A stretch of DNA of 18,016 nt. Source: Pseudomonadota bacterium (GTDB lineage: Bacteria; Pseudomonadota; Gammaproteobacteria; Burkholderiales; Gallionellaceae). Below the pieces are notes generated by a model. It saw only the letters and a program-made list of their open reading frames with translations. It made no database searches and had not been told where the DNA came from. Location of the stretch: the NCBI GenBank assembly GCA_021783855.1, contig JAJXTL010000050.1:1-18016 (forward strand), read 5' to 3'. Numbering within the stretch: the first letter of the stretch is position 1; the number at the start of each line of letters is the position of its first letter. Below are positions 126 through 12,884 of the stretch, in pieces. The position numbers and the translations under genes were made by a program.

Positions 126-392
126 TAACTCGGCATCAAAACGATCTTTGAGCAATTCGGTAAAACGTGTTTTGAGTTTGCCCAGATCGCGGGTGCGTAC
201 AGAAGGCTCGCCCAAAGATGCATGATGATAATCGCTCATGCGCATGGAGCGTTTCAGCGACTGGCTGGAAACCCGTACCCGGCTGACCCCGCCAAACACG
301 GCGGTTTTCTGCATGTTCATGTCATCGCGGTTCAAGCATGATGGGCTATGCGAAATCAATACATGGAAATTGATGAAATTCTTGGCGGTCAT
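123..392 (-). pseudogene. cas7e: cas7e (cse4/casC), truncated by IS insertion
   Basis: The 89-residue remnant matches the start of Cas7e, the backbone subunit that polymerises along crRNA in type I-E Cascade. The diagnostic N-terminal block [20 protein letters not shown] is intact and is followed by the [12 protein letters not shown] segment. Full-length Cas7e is about 350 residues. Here homology stops at RFDAEL and a TAG comes from the inserted element. The start ATG (392) shares one base with the cas11e stop (TAATG), so translation is coupled. About three quarters of the protein is missing from this side; the rest may lie beyond the element. Unless the insertion excises or a second cas7e exists, no Cascade backbone can be made. 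Confidence 0.9.
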
Positions 393-844
393 TATTTATC
401 TCCTTTGGCGGGTTTAAAGCGAACAATGTAAAAATCTTCGACGAGTTGACGTTTGGCTTTGTCATTCCAATACCAAACCATGCGACCAAATTCAGACCAG
501 TTTACGGTCGGTTCTATATGAGCTAGCAGTCGTCGTAGCTGCACAATATCCAGCGGCGCATGGGCGCGAGCAATTTGCAAGACACGCGCTTCAGCAACTT
601 TAGCTTCTGCCAACTGCGCACCCAGCGGCTTGGCCTTGGCCGCGTGCTTACAGCATGGCAATAAAAACGCCAGACGTAAGTGGCGCTCTCCCGGCTTTTG
701 CCCAGGAAACAGTCGATAGAGCGCAGGCGTGAGTGCAACATCATCAGGTTCGGCAATTCTACGCAGTTCTGCGCGTTCGCCATTTGAAAGCTTTTCGTCG
801 TAATGCTTTTTCAGCGCGACGAAATCCGGCAGTTCAGCACTCAT
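392..844 (-). CDS. cas11e: Cascade small subunit Cas11e (Cse2/CasB)
   Basis: A 150-residue, mostly helical, basic protein in the position of cse2 between cas8e and cas7e. Cse2 dimerises along the belly of type I-E Cascade and stabilises the R-loop by holding the displaced strand. Recognisable family features are the [12 protein letters not shown] segment near residues 38-49 and the conserved C-terminal part [20 protein letters not shown] with FY.VRF at the end. The length is close to the E. coli protein (160 residues). The start ATG (844) overlaps the cas8e TGA by four bases (ATGA) and the stop overlaps the cas7e start by one base. It appears intact but cannot form a normal complex if Cas7e is lost. 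Confidence 0.9.
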
Positions 845-2340
845 GCTTCCTCCTCCAGTTTTTTAAGGTCAGTGTTCAGGCTGCGTCGTGCCCATGCGAT
901 AACGGCAATCAACTCGGGTTTCATTGCGTAGGGGTCAGTAAGTTCTTCAAAAATGGCGCGGCATTGTCCCGCCATCTGCTTGGCAACGTTCTGTTTTGCC
1001 GCCGCCCACTGAGTGAATGTATCTTTGTTTGAAAACGTCTCGTGAATCAAACTTTCAGTCCGTGCGTAAAACAACTTTTCGGCGGTTTCATGGATGGCTG
1101 CACCAATACCTTTCAGCCCCTTGTCCTTATTCCCCTGAACAGCAAAATAGAGCTTACCGCGCAAGGCTTTCTTAGCCTCTTTGCCAATCTCGACCAGCTT
1201 TGACAAGCGGCCTTTGTCATCCTGCCAGCCTTGCGCAAGGCTAATCATCTCGTGCCGCCGCTCCAATACCGAGGCTTGGTTGGTACGATAACCACCTATA
1301 AGCAAATGCAGGCCACCTTCACCAAGCTCATTTGCTTGGGTGATTGGCTCGGCTGGGATTGAACCTTCTTTAGCATCCGGGGCGTTGTTGGGTACAACAA
1401 ACTCGGATAACTGCGTCCATGCAGGAGCGGTAGTTGTGAAGCTGGCAAATTTCACTGGCGGGTCTTTTTTTAGGTTCATGGTCATCGCGCCATGTGGATG
1501 CGGCCATACACCTTGCACAGTGAAGTTGAATTTTTCCTTGCGAAAGCCGCTGTACCCCTGCACTGCATCGCCACCCAAAACATCGCAGGGGGCCAGTTCT
1601 TCGGATTTCACCAGTTCAACACGCGCTGGTTGCCAGAATAAACCGCGCATGAGGCCGATCTCGTTCCAAGGAATGGTTGATTTTTCCAAAATTGGTTTGA
1701 CCCATGTAGGTTGGTCGAACTCAAAACCCGGCATGGCGATTTGCCGTTTCGCGATACGAGGTCGCGTAAGCACATTGCGCCAAATCGTTTCACGTAAATC
1801 GGCACCATAGGCCAGCGTGGTAATCGGCGCACCGCCGCGTAAACTGCCTTTGAAACCGCCGCCGAAACTCGGGCAATTAGAAGCTTGATTAAATAAGGTG
1901 ATTGCAGCAAGTGAACCCGATAGGTTGCGCACCTCCCCCGCTTCGTTGAAAAAAGCGTGGTTATTGCCTTCCGGCAGGCCAATCAGCAATTTCTGGATTG
2001 GGGTGTTTTCGGCAGACTTTACCCCGCGTGATTGCATGAATGGCTGGGTGGGGTGGTCGAGGTCGAACCAATCAAGGCAGGGGCTTATGCCGACTTCAAA
2101 ATCCTCTAGCGATAGCATTTTATTAATTCGTGTCCGCAAAGCCTTATCGTCTTCTGGCAAGAACATAACTTGAGTCATGCACACCAACAATTGCACACAG
2201 GCCAGTTCAAGGTCGTCGCGCGGCAAGCTCACTTGCCAGCTCCCAGATTCGCACAAAAGTTGCTGGTAGGTCAGCAGGCGGAAAGCTCCTGTGCCACCTT
2301 CGGCGCGCATAGGAATCCATGGGTCTTTAAGCAGGTTCAT
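841..2340 (-). CDS. cas8e: Cascade large subunit Cas8e (Cse1/CasA)
   Basis: A 499-residue protein, as long as E. coli CasA (about 502). Cas8e recognises the PAM, wedges the target duplex open and recruits Cas3. The start MNLLKDPWIPM is the family signature. Residues 159-175 carry the glycine-rich loop FGGGFKGSLRGGAPITT, which in CasA is the PAM/target-contacting loop. The C-terminal third (about 370-499) is helical, as expected for the four-helix bundle that contacts Cse2. The gene starts inside the end of cas3 (14-base overlap) and ends in an ATGA overlap with cas11e, so the operon is tightly coupled. No frameshift or missing motif was seen. Confidence 0.95.
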   Translation of the reverse strand: MNLLKDPWIPMRAEGGTGAFRLLTYQQLLCESGSWQVSLPRDDLELACVQLLVCMTQVMFLPEDDKALRTRINKMLSLEDFEVGISPCLDWFDLDHPTQPFMQSRGVKSAENTPIQKLLIGLPEGNNHAFFNEAGEVRNLSGSLAAITLFNQASNCPSFGGGFKGSLRGGAPITTLAYGADLRETIWRNVLTRPRIAKRQIAMPGFEFDQPTWVKPILEKSTIPWNEIGLMRGLFWQPARVELVKSEELAPCDVLGGDAVQGYSGFRKEKFNFTVQGVWPHPHGAMTMNLKKDPPVKFASFTTTAPAWTQLSEFVVPNNAPDAKEGSIPAEPITQANELGEGGLHLLIGGYRTNQASVLERRHEMISLAQGWQDDKGRLSKLVEIGKEAKKALRGKLYFAVQGNKDKGLKGIGAAIHETAEKLFYARTESLIHETFSNKDTFTQWAAAKQNVAKQMAGQCRAIFEELTDPYAMKPELIAVIAWARRSLNTDLKKLEEEA

Positions 2341-4945
2341 TGTTAACCCTCTCTAATCCAAAATCTTCTGAGTATAGAAACTTACCATCAATTGCCGACC
2401 AACTGCTATTTACGTCAGCAGTCATTTTTAGTAACACGACTCCATCATCATTATGTTGGCAGCCCTTTAGCCGTTCCTCCCAACTAGCCGGAACAGGTGC
2501 GGTGTGCAGGTTAAGCGTTTCAGCAAGGTCACGCTCGTTTAACGCACTCAACACTTGCCCATCCAGCAGGCGACCATCGGGCTGTATGGGCAAAACCGTC
2601 AAACTCATTTCGCCGTCACGAGTAAGAGCCGTGGTTGCGCTATCTTCATCACGAAAGTTGCTGACGGTCAACGTGGTGAGCCTCTTGGCTTCTGCATCAC
2701 GTCTACCCTGTTCATCTTTCCATGCCAGATAATTGCTATACACAACATCAGGTTCATCTTCCCAAATATTGCGCTGATAAACTTGCTCTATCCAATCCCT
2801 ATACGCCTCCGGGAAAACAATCCTGTCCGTATTGGCAAGCAGTCTTTCGGTGCGCCACAGCACACGGGTGTTACCGTAAATAAGTTTGTGCAACTCATAG
2901 TCATCACCATCTACTGACAGCACCGTGCAACGAGGTAACTCAAACCCTTCGGGACGATGTTCACGTTGGTGGCGATGCAAGCGTCCAATCCGCTGAAACA
3001 GCAAGTCCACTGGGCAGATTTGCGTGAGCATCCAATCGAAATCCAGATCGAGACTTTGCTCAACCACTTGCGTGGCAACGAGAATGCGCCCCTTGTCGCG
3101 CACGGCATCGCGTCCATAGTTATCGGTTACCGCCTTTTCTTTTGCTTGCCTATCCATGAAGCGGTAGCGCGCATGGAATACATCCACAGCTATCGTCGTT
3201 TTACCGCGCAGCAAGCGGGCAAGCCGCTGGGCATCGTCCACCAAGTTCATCACTATCGCCACTCGTGCGCCGGATTCGGCGGCAGCGATGATGCGGCCAA
3301 TCACCGCATCATCAGGAAATGCGCCGGGGAGTTTGATGCATTCTGTCAGCACTTCGCGCCGCTGCGGGCGGTGTTCGTCTGGCACTGTCATCGGGACAAC
3401 CGCACCTTGTGTGGCGTGCCACAGTGCGGGATACGGCGCATCATCCACGCCGCTGCATTCCCATGCCGCTAGTAACTTGGCGCGTATACCAGCGGGTAAG
3501 GTGGCGGACAACAAAATCGCGCTGCCGCCGATGGCTTTCTGGCGGCGCAACACTTCGCCGAGCAGGCCGTGCATGTAGGCATCGTAGGCATGAACTTCAT
3601 CCACGATAAGCACGGATTTGTTCAAGCCAAAACCGCGCACAAATTTGTGCCTGACAGGCAATACGGACAGCAATACTTGATCCACTGTGCAAACACCAAT
3701 CTGACCGAGAAACACTCGCTTGCGGCTGTTGGCAAGCCATGCGGCACATTGGACGGAGGCTTCTTCTTTACCTTGAGATGTTTGTCGTTGTCCGCTGTTA
3801 ACCAGCCGCTGGAACGATTCATTGAAATCGCGCTTGCCGTGCGACAGTACTACATTGGCATTGCCAAATACTTTCACCGCGAACTCTTCGGCGCGGGCAA
3901 GCATGGCGTTGGCGGTGGCTTGTGTGGGGAGCGCAAATACGATTGAGTCGGCGATTCCTTGATCCAGTAAGCGCCAAGCATAAGCCAGTGCGGCTTCGGT
4001 TTTGCCGCTTCCTGTCGGCGCTTCGATCAGTGTTAAGCCGGGCGTGGTTGGCAGGCTATCCACCCGAACCTGAACGCCGCGTGGAGATTCATCAGGTTTT
4101 AGCAATGATCCGATGCCTTTATAAGCAACTGCCTTTGCAAGCAGGCCAAAGCGATTCAGTGCATCTTTTTCACGAATGTTTTGTATGCTTGCGGCAAAGT
4201 AATTGGCTAATGCAGTTTCAGGTTTTTGATATGAGAATACCTCGGTGTTAGAGCCTATCCAGTCGCACACTGAGCAGAAACCAGCCAGCAAACTTTGCGC
4301 ACTTGGTGAGGTAGGTGGGGGTAAGTCCTGCAAACTGAGTTCAGCAGGTGTGAGGAAAATATCAGCCAATGCAGCCACAAATGCTTGGCGCGCAGCAAGG
4401 TCGTTTTCAATGATGGATGTATCCGCATCGGGATCGTAAATTTTTGTGGCTTCGTAAAAATCACCATGATGTCCGGTAACAGCAGCCAGCCAAGGCTTCC
4501 AGCATTCCCATGTATCGCGGTCGGCATCCTCCTGCCCAAGCCATTCACAATATTCCTGATTCGCCCAAGCCATGCCCGCCCAGCCATGATCGAATCCTTT
4601 GATGTCACTTTGTGAAACTTCTTGATCTTTCTTGCCAAGTGGTCGCCATGCTGCGGCAAGTGCATCCGGTGCCTTTAGCTGGAATCGCACATCGAATTTG
4701 CCAAGGTCATGCAAAGCCGTGAAAAACAGAACCCAAGCGCGTAATTGGTTTTGCTGTAATGACGTACAACCGAAAGCCGAAAGGAAGGTGCGTTGAATGG
4801 TAGGGCTGGCATCCCACCAAGATGCAGCAACAGCCGCCACATCCAGGCTGTGATAGGCAAGCGGATGCCATTTTTGTTCATGCGGATAAGCCGGATCGGC
4901 TTTGCCCCAGTAGTTGAAAATCGTATCCTCACGCTGCTCAGACAT
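2327..4945 (-). CDS. cas3: CRISPR-associated nuclease/helicase Cas3 (type I-E)
   Basis: 872 residues from the chosen ATG at 4945. Cas3 is recruited by Cascade and reels in and degrades target DNA. The HD nuclease motifs are visible: H32 in YHSLD, H79-D80 in LHDLGKFD and the GHHGDFYE block. The SF2 helicase follows: motif I APTGSGKTE (K315), DEVH box at 449-452, motif III LLSATLP and motif VI QRIGRLHRH. The frame is open upstream to 5035, but the 4945 start has an AGGGA Shine-Dalgarno seven bases upstream and gives the family N-terminus; the extra 30 codons translate repeat-derived sequence. It overlaps cas8e by 14 bases. All catalytic motifs seen are intact, although the downstream effector gene is broken. 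Confidence 0.93.
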   Translation of the reverse strand: MSEQREDTIFNYWGKADPAYPHEQKWHPLAYHSLDVAAVAASWWDASPTIQRTFLSAFGCTSLQQNQLRAWVLFFTALHDLGKFDVRFQLKAPDALAAAWRPLGKKDQEVSQSDIKGFDHGWAGMAWANQEYCEWLGQEDADRDTWECWKPWLAAVTGHHGDFYEATKIYDPDADTSIIENDLAARQAFVAALADIFLTPAELSLQDLPPPTSPSAQSLLAGFCSVCDWIGSNTEVFSYQKPETALANYFAASIQNIREKDALNRFGLLAKAVAYKGIGSLLKPDESPRGVQVRVDSLPTTPGLTLIEAPTGSGKTEAALAYAWRLLDQGIADSIVFALPTQATANAMLARAEEFAVKVFGNANVVLSHGKRDFNESFQRLVNSGQRQTSQGKEEASVQCAAWLANSRKRVFLGQIGVCTVDQVLLSVLPVRHKFVRGFGLNKSVLIVDEVHAYDAYMHGLLGEVLRRQKAIGGSAILLSATLPAGIRAKLLAAWECSGVDDAPYPALWHATQGAVVPMTVPDEHRPQRREVLTECIKLPGAFPDDAVIGRIIAAAESGARVAIVMNLVDDAQRLARLLRGKTTIAVDVFHARYRFMDRQAKEKAVTDNYGRDAVRDKGRILVATQVVEQSLDLDFDWMLTQICPVDLLFQRIGRLHRHQREHRPEGFELPRCTVLSVDGDDYELHKLIYGNTRVLWRTERLLANTDRIVFPEAYRDWIEQVYQRNIWEDEPDVVYSNYLAWKDEQGRRDAEAKRLTTLTVSNFRDEDSATTALTRDGEMSLTVLPIQPDGRLLDGQVLSALNERDLAETLNLHTAPVPASWEERLKGCQHNDDGVVLLKMTADVNSSWSAIDGKFLYSEDFGLERVNNEPA

Positions 4946-4980
4946 ATTGGCATCCCTGAATTTTGCAATTGCTGCGCAGT

Positions 4981-5012
4981 TTATACCCACTGGTGTCTCA
5001 GAACCTGAGCCT
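4981..5012 (-). promoter_or_regulatory. Possible cas operon promoter upstream of cas3
   Basis: On the minus strand a TATAAA box (4986-4981) lies about 36 bases before the cas3 ATG, preceded by GTGGG. The best -35 at 17-18 bases spacing (CAGGTT/TCAGGT, around 5004-5010) is poor and falls inside the copy of the 29-bp direct repeat at 4993-5021. If used, the repeat would supply the upstream half of the promoter. Only the -10 resemblance and the distance support it. Confidence 0.3.
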
Positions 5013-5021
5013 GTCGAATCT
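4993..5021. repeat. 29-bp direct repeat, copy A
   Basis: The 22 bases starting GGTGTCTCAGAACCTGAG recur identically at 5679-5700; over 29 bases (4993-5021 against 5679-5707) 27 match. The core contains a small hairpin CTCAG-AAC-CTGAG. Its right part, AGCCTGTCGAA, is shared with the left arm of the inverted repeat in comEC (17791-17813), so it may belong to the same dispersed repeat family. It lies between cas3 and the antitoxin gene and is partly read as codons if cas3 is started at 5035. Confidence 0.75.
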
Positions 5022-5060
5022 TTTACTGCTTTCACCTGCCAACCAACATGATATTAACTT

Positions 5061-5708: not shown

Positions 5709-6737
5709 TTATTTTTGATAATTTGCCATCGCGGCCAGAAGACGGTTTTTTACTTCCTGCCGCAATTCGTCAGGGCCGAGCACCTCAACGTCAGGGCCAT
5801 ATTTCATGATATCCATCACCAGTTCGCGCGGGTCGGAATAGGGAATGCGCAACTCATAACTGCCGTCTTCAAGCATCCGGCTTTGCTGCTGCGGATGCCA
5901 GTGCTCATCGGCCACCCAGCGGGCGCGTTCGGGGTTGAAGCGCAACAGGGCGATGTGTTCCGGTTCTCCGGCAAAGATGCCGTAGGAACTCGCGTAATGC
6001 GCATCGAGTTGCTCTTCCGGGATGTCAAGGCAACGCTGCGGCAAGGCTTTGGCGGCGCTGATGCGCTCGACGGCAAAGCTGCGAAGTGCATTTCTGGTGT
6101 GACACCAGGCATCCAGATACCAGTTGTGGCTCGGCCTGATATCAGCTTTTCGTCTACGCCGAAAGACTGCATACGCCGTCTTTTCCCTATAATGAATGAG
6201 GCGCTGCGGGGAGATTTCGCGCTGACTATACTCATCGTTGCCGCGCCCGTGGTAGGTGATGTGCAGGCTGTTTCTTTTCAACAGAGCGCCCGCCGCGGTC
6301 TGAAAACATTCGAGTGCAACGTTGCGTCCGGTCATGCGCAGGATATGCACGCGCTGGCTGATCTGTTCACAACCCAGATGATTGGCTGCCAGAATTTTTT
6401 CGATGCGATCGCGTACCGGTTTGAGTTGTGCGTCGAGCAGTCCGGGCTGGACTTGTGCCAACAGTTGCTGGGTGGTTAACAAGGCATACAGTTCGGTTTC
6501 ACTGAACCAGAGTCCGGGAAGCTCGAAGGATTCGCCTTTATCTAAGGCGTAATGGTAACCGTTGCGTGATCGGTCATATTCGAGCGGCGCATTGAAATAC
6601 AGGCGCATCTCTTCGATGATGCGGTTGACTGTGGCGCGCGAACATTCGAGCTTTTTTTGCAACACGCTGTGCGGCACCGGCAAACGGTGTGCGGCAATAA
6701 CTTGATGCAGCTTATAGATACGTTGCAGTCGATCCAT
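5709..6737 (-). CDS. WYL-domain transcriptional regulator (HTH + WYL) with in-frame insert
   Basis: 342 residues. Residues 1-55 form a DeoR/HTH_11-like winged helix (MDRLQRIYKLHQVI; CSRATVNRIIEEMR). A central helical linker is followed by the WYL domain, whose motif NWYLDAWCHTRNALRSF begins at residue 205, and by a C-terminal WCX-like extension ending near the stop. WYL domains bind small ligands or nucleic acid and often regulate defence loci; the nearby cas operon and toxin-antitoxin pair fit, but the target is unknown. Residues 185-204 (EKTAYAVFRRRRKADIRPSH) interrupt the usual HYR-(D)NWYLDAW block and look like a repeat-derived insertion. The start has AAGGT upstream. It is convergent with the toxin gene. 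Confidence 0.88.
   Translation of the reverse strand: MDRLQRIYKLHQVIAAHRLPVPHSVLQKKLECSRATVNRIIEEMRLYFNAPLEYDRSRNGYHYALDKGESFELPGLWFSETELYALLTTQQLLAQVQPGLLDAQLKPVRDRIEKILAANHLGCEQISQRVHILRMTGRNVALECFQTAAGALLKRNSLHITYHGRGNDEYSQREISPQRLIHYREKTAYAVFRRRRKADIRPSHNWYLDAWCHTRNALRSFAVERISAAKALPQRCLDIPEEQLDAHYASSYGIFAGEPEHIALLRFNPERARWVADEHWHPQQQSRMLEDGSYELRIPYSDPRELVMDIMKYGPDVEVLGPDELRQEVKNRLLAAMANYQK
6126..6185 (-). repeat. 60-bp palindrome-rich in-frame insert in the WYL gene
   Basis: Exactly 20 codons that separate HYR from the WYL motif NWYLDAW. The segment contains AAAGAC-N10-GTCTTT, two copies of CGGCGTA, and the perfect 10-bp palindrome CTGATATCAG. From family memory the two flanks normally join directly, which would make this an inserted element that keeps the frame. 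I could not compare homologues. Confidence 0.5.
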
Positions 6738-7786: not shown

Positions 7787-7905
7787 ATCATCCTCCTGCT
7801 CTGAATTGTTCAGTGGAAATTTTACCGGTTTTCTGCTGCAAAATGCGCTGTTGTCGTCAGGTTGTGGCAAACTGTCGCCCGTTCCATCAACGCGACTACT
7901 TTATC

Positions 7906-9150
7906 TTGCAACCCTACGAACTGTTCATCGGCCTGCGCTACACCCGCGCCAAGCGGCGCAACCATTTCATCTCCTTCATTTCATTGATTTCCATGCTGGG
8001 CATGGGGCTGGGCGTGATGGCGCTGATCGTCGTGCTGTCGGTGATGAACGGCTTCCAGAAGGAAATCCGCGCGCGCATGCTGGGCGCATCCCCTCATCTG
8101 GAAGTGGTCGCCGACGGCGGGCGCATGGACGACTGGCAACCCATCCTGAACAAGGTCGCACAGAACCCGCAAGTATTGGCTGCCGCACCTTATGTGGCAG
8201 GGCAAGGCATGCTCTCAAACGGGCAGAGCGTGCAGGGCGTGATGGTGCGCGGCATCGACCCTGCCCGTGAGACTGCCATCACCGAGCTTGCCAACAAGAT
8301 CAAGGTGGGCAGACTGGCCGATCTGCGCAGCACGGAATTCGGCATCGTACTGGGTTCCGATCTGGCGCGCGCGCTGGGAGTGCAGATGGGCGAAAAAGTC
8401 ATGCTGATCGCGCCGCAAGGCTCGATCACGCCCGCCGGCATGATGCCGCGCTTAAAACAGTTCCGCGTGGTGGGCATTTTCGAGATCGGCATGGCGCCTT
8501 ACGACAACTCTCTGGCGCTGATCAACATCAGCGATGCACAAAAACTGTTTCAGCTGGGCGATGCGGTGACCGGCATCAGCACCAAGCTGCGCGACATCGA
8601 CAAGGCACCCGAGGTGGCCGCCGAGCTGCAACACCAGTTGCCGCAAGGCCTGTATGCCAACGACTGGACGCATCAGAACAGCAACTACTTCAGCGCGGTC
8701 AAGATGGAAAAGAAAATGATGTTCATCATCCTGTCGCTGATCGTCGCGGTCGCCGCCTTCAATATCGTATCCACCCTGGTGATGGCGGTCACCGACAAGC
8801 AGGCCGATATCGCCATTCTGCGCACGCTGGGCGCCTCCCCCGCCAGCATCATGAAAATCTTTATCGTGCAGGGCGTGGTGATCGGTCTGATCGGCACACT
8901 GGCAGGCAGTCTCTGCGGCATCCTGCTGGCGCTCAACCTGAACGTGGTGGTGCCGTTCATCGAACATCTGTTCGGCGTGCAGTTCCTCTCCAAGGATGTC
9001 TATTACATCAGCGAACTGCCGTCCGATCTGCGCTATCACGAGGTGATACTGGTATCAGGAATATCCTTTGTAATCAGTCTACTGGCGACGCTGTACCCGA
9101 GCTACCGGGCATCGAAGACACAACCGGCGGAGGCATTGCGTTATGAATAA
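7906..9150 (+). CDS. lolC: Lipoprotein-releasing ABC transporter permease (LolC/LolE/LolF type)
   Basis: Inner-membrane permease that extracts mature lipoproteins from the inner membrane and hands them to LolA. From the TTG at 7906 it is 414 residues and starts with the family N-terminus [22 protein letters not shown]1 is at about 21-46, then a periplasmic domain of some 220 residues (MacB_PCD-like), then FtsX-type helices at about 271-298, 318-345 and 382-404. The frame is also open from a GTG at 7813 and an ATG at 7843, but those 31 codons do not look like the family and none of the starts has a clear Shine-Dalgarno, so the start is uncertain. The stop overlaps lolD by eight bases. Only one permease gene is present here, so it may act as a homodimer (LolF-like) or pair with a distant LolE. 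Confidence 0.9.
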
Positions 9151-9868
9151 TCAAATTCAGGATCGAGGATTGAGGATTGAGGATTCAGGGTGCGTCATTT
9201 CCTGCCGGGAGTTGAGCAAGACTTTTACGCTGGGTCAAGTGCTGGTACCGGTGCTCAGAGGCGTCAGTCTGGAAGTCGGACGCGGCGAGCGCATCGCCAT
9301 CGTAGGCGCATCCGGTTCCGGCAAAAGCACCCTGTTGCATCTGCTGGGCGGGCTGGATAACGCCACCAGCGGCAGCGTGCAAATACTGGGCCAGGAAGTG
9401 CAGAAAATGAACGAGACGCAGCGCGGAGTCATCCGCAACCGGTCGCTGGGCTTCGTCTATCAGTTTCACCATCTGTTGCCGGAATTTACCGCGCTGGAAA
9501 ACGTCGCGATGCCGCTCTTGATACGCCGCATGAAACGCCATGATGCCGAACCGATTGCTGCCGCGATGCTGGAGAAAGTGGGGCTTGCGCATCGCCTGCA
9601 TCACCTGCCCAGCGAACTGTCGGGCGGGGAGCGCCAGCGCACGGCGGTTGCCCGCGCGCTGGTCACGAAACCTGCCTGCGTGCTGGCGGACGAGCCGACC
9701 GGCAATCTGGACCGCAAGAGCGCGGAAGATTTATTCGATCTGATGCAGCAGCTCAACGAACAGCTGGGCACCAGCTTCATCGTCGTCACCCACGATCTTG
9801 AACTGGCAAAACGCATGCAGCGCAGCCTGAAACTGGTCGATGGCGTACTCGGCGCCGAAATGAGCTGA
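9143..9868 (+). CDS. lolD: Lipoprotein-releasing ABC transporter ATPase LolD
   Basis: 241-residue ABC ATPase that powers lipoprotein release. It shows Walker [10 protein letters not shown] (55-63), Q-loop Q107 in the LolD-typical [21 protein letters not shown], signature LSGGERQR (159-166), Walker B CVLADE with E184, and switch His H217 in [12 protein letters not shown]. These match LolD rather than MacB or FtsE. The ATG at 9143 lies within the end of the permease gene (ATGAATAA), so the pair is co-translated. Compared with E. coli LolD the N-terminus is about 14 residues longer; the extra part is encoded by a GAGGATT tandem repeat. No intact downstream partner follows: the next gene is convergent. 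Confidence 0.95.
9158..9185 (+). repeat. GAGGATT heptanucleotide tandem repeat in lolD
   Basis: Three perfect head-to-tail copies of GAGGATT (9165-9171, 9172-9178, 9179-9185) preceded by a degenerate copy CAGGATC (9158-9164). They lie in codons 6-15 of lolD. As seven is not a multiple of three, loss or gain of a single unit would shift the lolD frame. Confidence 0.85.
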
Positions 9869-10804: not shown

Positions 10805-11998
10805 CTATACTTTGAAGCGTTGGAGTGAAACACGGAGTCCGGAAGCCAGATTTTCCAGATGTCGCGCTACCGCAACCGCCTCACTGCTGGCGGCATTGTT
10901 TTCCTGCGATTTTCCGGAAATTTCATTCATCCCGTTCACTGCCTGCAGGCTGTTGCGGGACTGCTGTTCGGTGGCAGAAGCAATATTGCGCACACGATCC
11001 ATGGTGCTGCGCGCACCACTGCGTATGGATTCAAGCGCCTGCTCGGCGTCCCGCGCGAGTTGCAGACCGGACTTTACCTGCTTGCGGCCATTTTCCATGC
11101 CGGTCACCGCCGCTTCGATTTCCTGCAGAATGCCGGAAATCATGCTGCTGATTTCACCCGTAGCACCGGCAGTGCGTTCGGCCAGTTTGCGCACTTCATC
11201 GGCTACCACTGCAAACCCGCGTCCCTGCTCACCGGCACGAGCGGCCTCTATTGCCGCATTCAGCGCCAGCAAATTTGTCTGATCGGCAATACCCTTGATG
11301 ACGCTGACGATGCCGCCAATCTGATCCGAACGCTGCCCCATGGAAGAAACCAGCGTTGCAAGATCACTGATGGAGGCATCGATTCTGGACATTTCCTCGC
11401 CTGCCGCATGAACAATAGTCACACCATTATCTGCGAGCCTTTCGGATTCTTCGGCAATCTCTTTGGACAGTCTGGCAGATTCCGCGACATGTTCCACACT
11501 GGCGCGCATTTCTTCCATGGCTCTTGTCGATGAGGCAGCCAACGCACTCTGCGCGTCCGCGCCCGCCACCACGCGAGCCGCTGCCACTGTCAGTTCCGTC
11601 GCAGCGCTGGCGACCTCCTCGGTCGCACCATCGACTTCCTTGATCAGACGACCGGTTTCCCGCGCCATATCATTCAGGCTGAAGGCCACCCGGCCGAAGC
11701 CATCCTGACTGTCCAGCACACTGCGGATCGTCAAATCGCCTGCTACAGCGGTACGGATAGTCCGCAGCAGAGAATCGAGCGATTCGCGTATTGAAACGTA
11801 GAGCGCATATTGCAGATAGATCGCCAGCAGCCCAGCAAAAGCAGCAAGTGAGTAAAGTGTTTGAGCCATTGCAGGCCAGTAACCTGTCGCAGCAAGCAAC
11901 AACCCGGGCAGCAATAAAAAAGGACTGCAAAGGATGAATTTCCCCGCTATATCAATACGCTGCAATAGTCCAACGGCAGGTCGAATCAACGAGTTCAT
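10805..11998 (-). CDS. Methyl-accepting chemotaxis protein lacking a periplasmic sensor domain
   Basis: 397 residues from the ATG at 11998, which has AAGGAA nine bases upstream; a further in-frame ATG at 12043 lacks one. Two adjacent membrane helices (about 21-38 and 44-68) are joined by only a few residues, so there is no extracytoplasmic ligand domain. A HAMP-like linker (about 70-122) follows, then the coiled-coil signalling domain with the hallmark hairpin tip [20 protein letters not shown] continuing to [13 protein letters not shown] (239-276). The protein would signal to CheW/CheA. The C-terminus ([10 protein letters not shown]) has no CheR-binding pentapeptide. It is the first gene of an operon with the NIT-like protein and is preceded by a sigma-54 promoter. 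Confidence 0.93.
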
Positions 11999-12048
11999 CA
12001 GGCACGATTCCTTGTCTTGTTGTATATGGGACGCATAGGGCAATTTAA

Positions 12049-12060
12049 AAACAGCTGTTT
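12049..12060. repeat. 12-bp palindrome AAACAGCTGTTT at the predicted transcription start
   Basis: A perfect palindrome occupying about +3 to +14 of the transcript predicted from the sigma-54 promoter. It may be a repressor site or may be chance in AT-rich DNA. Confidence 0.4.
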
Positions 12061-12072
12061 GCGTACAATAAA

Positions 12073-12089
12073 AGCAAATTACGTGCCAA
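12073..12089 (-). promoter_or_regulatory. Sigma-54 (-24/-12) promoter of the chemoreceptor operon
   Basis: On the minus strand the sequence reads TTGGCACGTAATTTGCT. It matches the RpoN consensus YTGGCACG-N4-TTGCW, with GG at -25/-24 and GC at -13/-12 at canonical spacing. The predicted transcription start is near 12062, giving a 5' leader of about 64 bases before the chemoreceptor ATG. Sigma-54 promoters need an enhancer-binding activator; a candidate NtrC site lies upstream at 12170-12184. Confidence 0.8.
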
Positions 12090-12090
12090 A

Positions 12091-12102
12091 AATAATATTA
12101 TT
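12091..12102. repeat. 12-bp AT palindrome AATAATATTATT
   Basis: A perfect self-complementary sequence directly upstream of the -24 element (about -29 to -40). It lies inside an AT-rich stretch (12091-12140) that could serve as the bendable or IHF-like region between a sigma-54 promoter and its enhancer. Confidence 0.4.
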
Positions 12103-12148
12103 ACAAAACAATATGATATGAATATATGGAAACAAAAAAGGTAATTTT

Positions 12149-12184
12149 CGGTGCATCGGAACAACAGAAGCACCGTTTTGGTGC
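12149..12184 (-). promoter_or_regulatory. NtrC-type enhancer site upstream of the sigma-54 promoter
   Basis: GCACC-GTTTT-GGTGC at 12170-12184 has the dyad and five-base spacer of NtrC enhancer sites such as those before E. coli glnA. Its centre (12177) is about 115 bp upstream of the predicted transcription start, close to the glnAp2 geometry. A second half-site, CGGTGCA at 12149-12155, lies about 20 bases nearer the promoter and also pairs with the first arm (CGGTGC/GCACCG). The match is by eye against a remembered consensus. Confidence 0.55.
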
Positions 12185-12359: not shown

Positions 12360-12884
12360 TTATCCAGCCCGCCGCCGCCCTCTGGCGCGCCATTTCAAAA
12401 CCACTGCCACACGCCAGACGATGCGCACCGCAAAATAGCCGGCAATTGCAAGGCACACCGCCAGCAACGGCAGGCCAATCAGCAGCGGTTTGCCCAACCC
12501 CGCCAGCCAGCTCCACAAGCCATCCGCATACAAACCTGGAAAAGCCGGCGGCACATCCGTCAGCTGCGCGCCGCTCACCCAAAGGCCGATCCGGTAGGCC
12601 AGCAGGTATAAAGGCACGATGGTGAACGGATTGGTGTACAGCGTGGCAAACAGCGCAACCGGTAAATTGACGCGAAACAGCAAAGCCATCAGGGTGGCTG
12701 CCAGCATCTGCAACGGCCCGGGTATCAGCCCGCAGAACAGCCCCACCGCGACCCCTCCCGCCACAGAACGGCGATGCAGATGCCACAGAGCAGGCCTTTG
12801 CAACCACTTGCCAAACGGCCTGAGCCAGCGGTTGTCTTTAATGGTTTCGTGATTCGGCAGTAACTTTTCTAATAAATTTCTCAT
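12360..12884 (-). CDS. DUF2062 domain membrane protein
   Basis: 174 residues with the clear DUF2062 pattern: N-terminal LLPNHETIKDNRWLRPFG, then LWHLHRRSVAGGVAVGLFCG and LIPGPLQMLAATLMALLFRV, and the conserved LYTNPFTIVPLY. There are about three membrane helices (around 41-72, 76-100 and 128-160) and a basic C-terminal tail ending RARGRRRAG. The function of the family is not established. In betaproteobacteria the gene is often found next to lolCD and comEC, and both are within this window, but here other operons separate them. It is divergent from the operon beginning at 12990; its start has no good Shine-Dalgarno. Confidence 0.88.
   Translation of the reverse strand: MRNLLEKLLPNHETIKDNRWLRPFGKWLQRPALWHLHRRSVAGGVAVGLFCGLIPGPLQMLAATLMALLFRVNLPVALFATLYTNPFTIVPLYLLAYRIGLWVSGAQLTDVPPAFPGLYADGLWSWLAGLGKPLLIGLPLLAVCLAIAGYFAVRIVWRVAVVLKWRARGRRRAG

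Follow-up and report, generated by a model that had tools for sequence, protein, structure and literature searches.

A chemoreceptor gene and a standalone NIT-domain gene behind a sigma-54 promoter and NtrC-type sites: a probable two-piece nitrate/nitrite chemoreceptor

We analysed an 18,016-base stretch of a Gallionellaceae genome (contig JAJXTL010000050.1; the whole stretch is referred to as the window), in which a gene for a chemoreceptor (methyl-accepting chemotaxis protein, MCP) is followed by a gene for a standalone NIT-domain protein. The two genes probably constitute an NtrC-regulon operon for a two-piece nitrate/nitrite chemoreceptor, with the layout of CetA/CetB and NIT in the place of PAS. 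Predicted control of the operon by NtrC is strongly supported by the sequence evidence. The features concerned are listed below (aa, amino acids).

12170..12184, minus strand: NtrC-type enhancer palindrome GCACC-GTTTT-GGTGC; direct reading, with counterparts in relatives; centre at about -115 from the predicted transcription start
12140..12155, minus strand: second NtrC site, degenerate apart from one good half (TGCACC-GAAAA-TTACC); direct reading; half-site TGCACC at 12155-12150
12074..12089, minus strand: sigma-54 (RpoN) -24/-12 promoter TTGGCACG-TAAT-TTGC; direct reading, conserved in relatives; predicted start near 12062
10805..12001, minus strand: chemoreceptor gene, 398 aa; Pfam MCPsignal (E 6.4e-50), weak HAMP match, two N-terminal membrane helices
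9951..10793, minus strand: standalone NIT-domain protein, 280 aa; match to Pfam NIT (PF08376); one N-terminal membrane helix, then an all-helical NIT domain

The leader of the chemoreceptor gene is a minus-strand interval flanked by a DUF2062 gene (12360-12884) and by the chemoreceptor start, which is probably ATG 12001 and not TTG 12043. An earlier sequence-only reading had placed an RpoN promoter here at 12073-12089; the promoter is present, with correctly spaced -24 GG and -12 GC elements, and its end coordinate was corrected to 12074. No other exact TGGCAC-N5-TTGC occurs in the window; tolerating one mismatch gave three matches where 2.46 were expected, so that the noteworthy part is the perfection of the match. 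The palindrome was found at about -115, as had been described, and is the only match to GCACC-N5-GGTGC in the window with 0 or 1 mismatch; two mismatches gave 9 matches versus 12.1 expected. Counted by eye, the degenerate site lies 30 base pairs (bp), or about three helical turns, promoter-proximal to the palindrome, and in the homologous leader of a Gallionellales locus (L001), TGCACC and the palindrome are 31 bp apart. Such a spacing is what two NtrC dimers on one face of the DNA would presumably need. The idea that the palindrome is a terminator was dropped because by eye no T run follows it.

To compare relatives, 26 loci were obtained in one scan of GTDB genomes and more from five family samples, in which genomes with any NIT match numbered 52/158 (family of G001), 13/187 (G003), 17/43 (G006), 72/144 (G013) and 64/246 (G009); many of these matches are larger proteins. 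The family names Gallionellaceae, Methylophilaceae, Cellvibrionaceae and Alteromonadaceae are those that we infer for the relatives. Standalone NIT frames, defined by a length of at most 360 aa and a score of at least 70 bits, numbered 87. A same-strand MCP frame was found upstream of 70 of them, within 300 bases in 69 cases; the second NIT gene of L149 lies 1,027 bases behind its MCP frame with another NIT gene between. As L010/L164 and L019/L168 repeat the same genes, the 87 frames represent 85 distinct proteins from several beta- and gammaproteobacterial families, 68 of which stand behind a chemoreceptor frame. The MCP frames of L006, L008, L010, L018 and L164 are cut or broken. Receptors in which an NIT-like part is fused to an MCP also exist (L033 and L076; HAMP and MCPsignal were detected with Pfam, the NIT part via the A1 profile only). 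Among the literature matches listed, titles and the opening lines of abstracts mentioned no NIT-MCP gene pair and no NtrC-run chemoreceptor.

Some loci showed further arrangements. L149 (G041) carries one chemoreceptor gene and then two tandem standalone NIT genes. Related EAL (cyclic-di-GMP phosphodiesterase-type) proteins are encoded in or beside the MCP-NIT operon, upstream at L004, L005 and L007 and downstream at L001, L156, L160 and L181; at L005 and L007 a sigma-54 promoter is placed before the EAL gene, and at L001 a PilJ-PAS-GGDEF gene also follows the operon.

The promoter and the NtrC site recur in the leaders of related receptor genes. Sixty-three leaders were scored (the 70 minus the MCP shared at L149, the five loci with damaged MCP frames and the duplicate L168); the leader of the window is counted among these 63 and among the 34 mentioned below. 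With score schemes and thresholds fixed after leader scores had been viewed, 26/63 leaders reached a sigma-54 score of at least 10 (of 14), compared to a mean of 1.35 and a maximum of 5 in 200 shuffles, and 17 of the 34 leaders with a sigma-54 score of at least 9 reached an NtrC score of at least 8 (100 shuffles: mean 0.75, maximum 4). On the reverse strand, two leaders reached the sigma-54 threshold. Other genes at the same loci served as a control: 11/220 reached a score of 10 and 1/220 a score of 12, and as these genes are partly operon-internal, their expected promoter rate is lower. The single gene at 12 is the EAL gene that opens the EAL-MCP-NIT operon of L005. L007 is likewise EAL-first: upstream of its EAL gene, TGGCATGGCGTTTGC is preceded at 98 bp by a perfect palindrome. 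A chance origin of the leader sites was rejected, since the counts are far above shuffles and gene controls. By eye, NtrC-like GCAC-type palindromes are also found about 45-65 bp before the receptor start in L013, L015, L019, L023, L166 and L167 (Cellvibrionaceae), without a recognisable sigma-54 promoter.

Outside this operon, the combination of both elements marked nitrogen genes. The composite pattern GCACY-N5-RGTGC-N72..102-TGGCAY-N5-TTGC was searched in 37 genomes chosen among carriers of NIT proteins. A narrower spacing of 55-80 had yielded one match in 19 genomes, at glnA of G019; the range was widened because the operon's spacing at L001, at L007 and in the window itself is 81-83. Eight matches were obtained, spread over five genomes, one of Marinobacterium and four from betaproteobacteria, and the reversed control gave none. 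Two of them precede the MCP-NIT operon (G001, G007), and all of the other six precede nitrogen genes, with none before an unrelated gene:

G019: before glnA
G003, first match: before a Gcw_chp porin gene, then a P-II gene and an ammonium transporter gene (glnK-amtB)
G003, second match: before uroporphyrinogen methyltransferase-nirB, then a nitrate-reductase-like gene
G007, second match: before narK-nirB, then a nitrate-reductase-like gene
G005: before an NMT1_2-family ABC binding protein with narK; a nirB-like frame further on
G001, second match: before a formate/nitrite transporter with cyanase

The nitrate-reductase-like frames are under the NCBIfam cut-offs for NasA and NasC, one of them scoring best versus formate dehydrogenase, and the NarK and formate/nitrite transporter matches are likewise under their NCBIfam cut-offs. 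All 40 related genomes examined contained NtrC above the cut-off and a CheA dimerisation domain. The sequence-only reading had held that promoter, activator site and sensor point to nitrogen; the conservation of the sites ahead of this gene pair across distantly related lineages, and a composite pattern that otherwise precedes nitrogen genes only, agree with it.

The chemoreceptor has two membrane helices joined by a loop of few residues (read by eye from the sequence) and a HAMP match of 15.8 bits, under the Pfam cut-off of 25. A Pfam search recognised no ligand-binding domain in it and gave no PilJ match, and no recognised sensor domain was found in the six further partner receptors scanned. 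Because the chemoreceptor is without a recognised sensing domain of its own, a point absent from the sequence-only reading, the two genes appear to encode the two parts of a single divided receptor.

The similarity of the second gene to NIT, noted before, was borne out by the Pfam profile: the 280-residue protein matched NIT with E 1.4e-6 and 29.4 bits (cut-off 24.9). Its predicted model has a NasR-type fold; the fold search alone reached the NasR structure 4akk, and sequence profiles versus PDB did not. Short NIT-like proteins of the G013 family failed as a bridge to NasR (two were scanned and had no Pfam match, one was searched and had no PDB match). No ANTAR domain was matched in the protein, whose NIT match extends to residue 270 of 280. 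Positive charges sit after its N-terminal membrane helix, and the protein probably faces the cytoplasm; in the topology count, the helix-finding motif is absent from 20 of the 68 distinct NIT proteins. Arginine (R) 54 and R178 are kept in 88/88 distinct complete rows of the NIT alignment, a count that includes three short NIT-like proteins without Pfam match (L218, L221, L222) and excludes six partial rows. Their correspondence to R50 and R176 of NasR was judged by helix numbers and aligned range, not by residue alignment. The pattern Q-x-x-R with G-x-x-R fits the asymmetric site of NasR as described in excerpts of PMC8199190.

From these observations we infer the following mechanism. Under a shortage of fixed nitrogen, NtrC in its phosphorylated form would occupy the pair of sites near -115 and -85 and would activate sigma-54 RNA polymerase at 12074-12089. 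A single helix would hold the NIT protein in the membrane, with the sensor domain in the cytoplasm, where nitrate or nitrite entering the cell may bind between R54 of helix 1 and R178 of helix 5. The altered NIT domain would then influence the receptor's HAMP-like and signalling region, presumably by direct contact, and the receptor would relay the signal to CheA. Membership of the receptor in the NtrC regulon would imply a nitrate taxis device made only under nitrogen shortage. For a wider claim the chances appear even: split chemoreceptors would form a class found across beta- and gammaproteobacteria, pairing a sensor-less receptor of the NtrC regulon with a docked NIT protein that faces the cytoplasm and reports intracellular nitrate or nitrite, in some lineages with a cyclic-di-GMP phosphodiesterase in the operon.

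Several observations weigh against this explanation. No MCP frame stands upstream of 17 of the 87 standalone NIT frames (L154, L155, L157, L159, L165 and others), and the sigma-54 score is below 10 in 37/63 leaders. None of 13 Cellvibrionaceae leaders inspected scores above 7, although several carry NtrC-like palindromes and two further loci of the same family sample, L158 and L160, score 11 and 10.5. The composite pattern had no match in the 22 genomes of the G009 family that were searched. The support from nirB is qualified: in the same family (246 genomes, taken as Alteromonadaceae), nirB was found in 36/37 carriers of standalone NIT versus 107/209 others (Fisher 9e-9), but in a test that ignores ancestry and in which carriers were counted by an open frame no longer than 310 aa, with the partial match G731 excluded and MCP not verified in each. 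nirB passes the cut-off in 129/144 genomes of the G013 family; because it is nearly universal there, this replicate is uninformative. The arginine pair is equally constant in longer NIT proteins (52/52 rows, of which gene G061:C3 is possibly counted twice and possibly standalone). Excerpts of PMC6381276 describe PA4520 of P. aeruginosa as a receptor whose NIT domain did not bind nitrate or nitrite, which makes the ligand the main doubt.

The operon may be NtrC-controlled while its NIT protein senses another anion or metabolite, and would then serve nitrogen-source or energy taxis instead of nitrate taxis. An arginine pair common to all complete aligned NIT rows, short and long, is in line with this alternative, which we nevertheless consider rather unlikely: the company of the composite motif is largely nitrate and nitrite assimilation operons, and the nirB association in the G009 family and the fit to the NasR site likewise argue for nitrate or nitrite. 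It is improbable that the two proteins are co-regulated without forming one receptor, the MCP being an energy-taxis or general array receptor and the NIT protein acting elsewhere, e.g. on cyclic-di-GMP enzymes. The EAL proteins in or adjoining the operon at 7 loci and the unpaired NIT frames would fit such a separation; the pairing in 68/85 distinct NIT proteins from several families, the six partner receptors lacking a recognised sensor domain and the existence of receptors with a fused NIT part all speak for a single receptor. Sigma-54 control is common among motility genes and these genomes hold many more NtrC-like activators under the NtrC cut-off, but it is very improbable that the promoter, beside an incidental palindrome, is driven by a different enhancer-binding protein (a motility activator of the PilR, FleQ or FlrC type), as the palindrome is conserved together with the promoter and the composite motif elsewhere marks nitrogen genes only (6/6).

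Bipartite chemoreceptors are PAS-FAD redox sensors according to excerpts of a 2026 review (PMC13401364). If the two-piece nitrate/nitrite receptor proposed here is real, an NIT-based bipartite receptor would make receptor splitting a more general design, a chemoreceptor would be placed directly in the NtrC regulon, and many standalone NIT proteins would acquire a role. It would also offer one mechanism for nitrate taxis seen only under limitation, as reported in excerpts of PMC6381276.

Elsewhere, the window contains Type I-E CRISPR genes (Cas3, Cse1/CasA and Cse2; 392-5035), a gene for a WYL-domain regulator (5709-6737) and LolC/E and LolD lipoprotein-release genes (7813-9868), the latter convergent with the NIT gene.

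Among known systems, CetA/CetB of C. jejuni and CetA2/CetB2 of Magnetospirillum, as described in literature excerpts, are similar in having adjacent genes for a two-helix hairpin receptor with a signalling domain and for a separate membrane-associated sensor. In contrast, the partner here is NIT with its own membrane helix and not PAS-FAD, control is apparently by NtrC/sigma-54, and the HAMP match is under the Pfam cut-off. By analogy, the MCP-NIT pair may work like CetA/CetB; it is not a member, because PAS-FAD sensors are what defines that family. NasR, a nitrate antiterminator with NIT and ANTAR domains (4akk), differs from the present protein, which is membrane-anchored, has no ANTAR domain and is proposed to act via a chemoreceptor and not via RNA. 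The P. aeruginosa nitrate chemoreceptor McpN (PA2788) follows the same logic, with nitrate taxis solely under nitrate starvation (excerpts of PMC6381276), but is a single protein with a periplasmic PilJ domain, whereas the receptor of the window has no PilJ match and a loop of few residues. The fused NIT chemoreceptors (PA4520; L033, L076) likewise combine an NIT-like part with an MCP signalling domain, in one protein and not two. NtrC/sigma-54 promoters such as that of glnA share both elements at a similar distance, glnA of G019 being matched by the composite pattern, whereas the genes controlled here are sensory and not metabolic. Nitrogen-linked control of a chemoreceptor has a precedent in AerC of Azospirillum, which excerpts of PMC13401364 describe as raised under nitrogen-fixing conditions.
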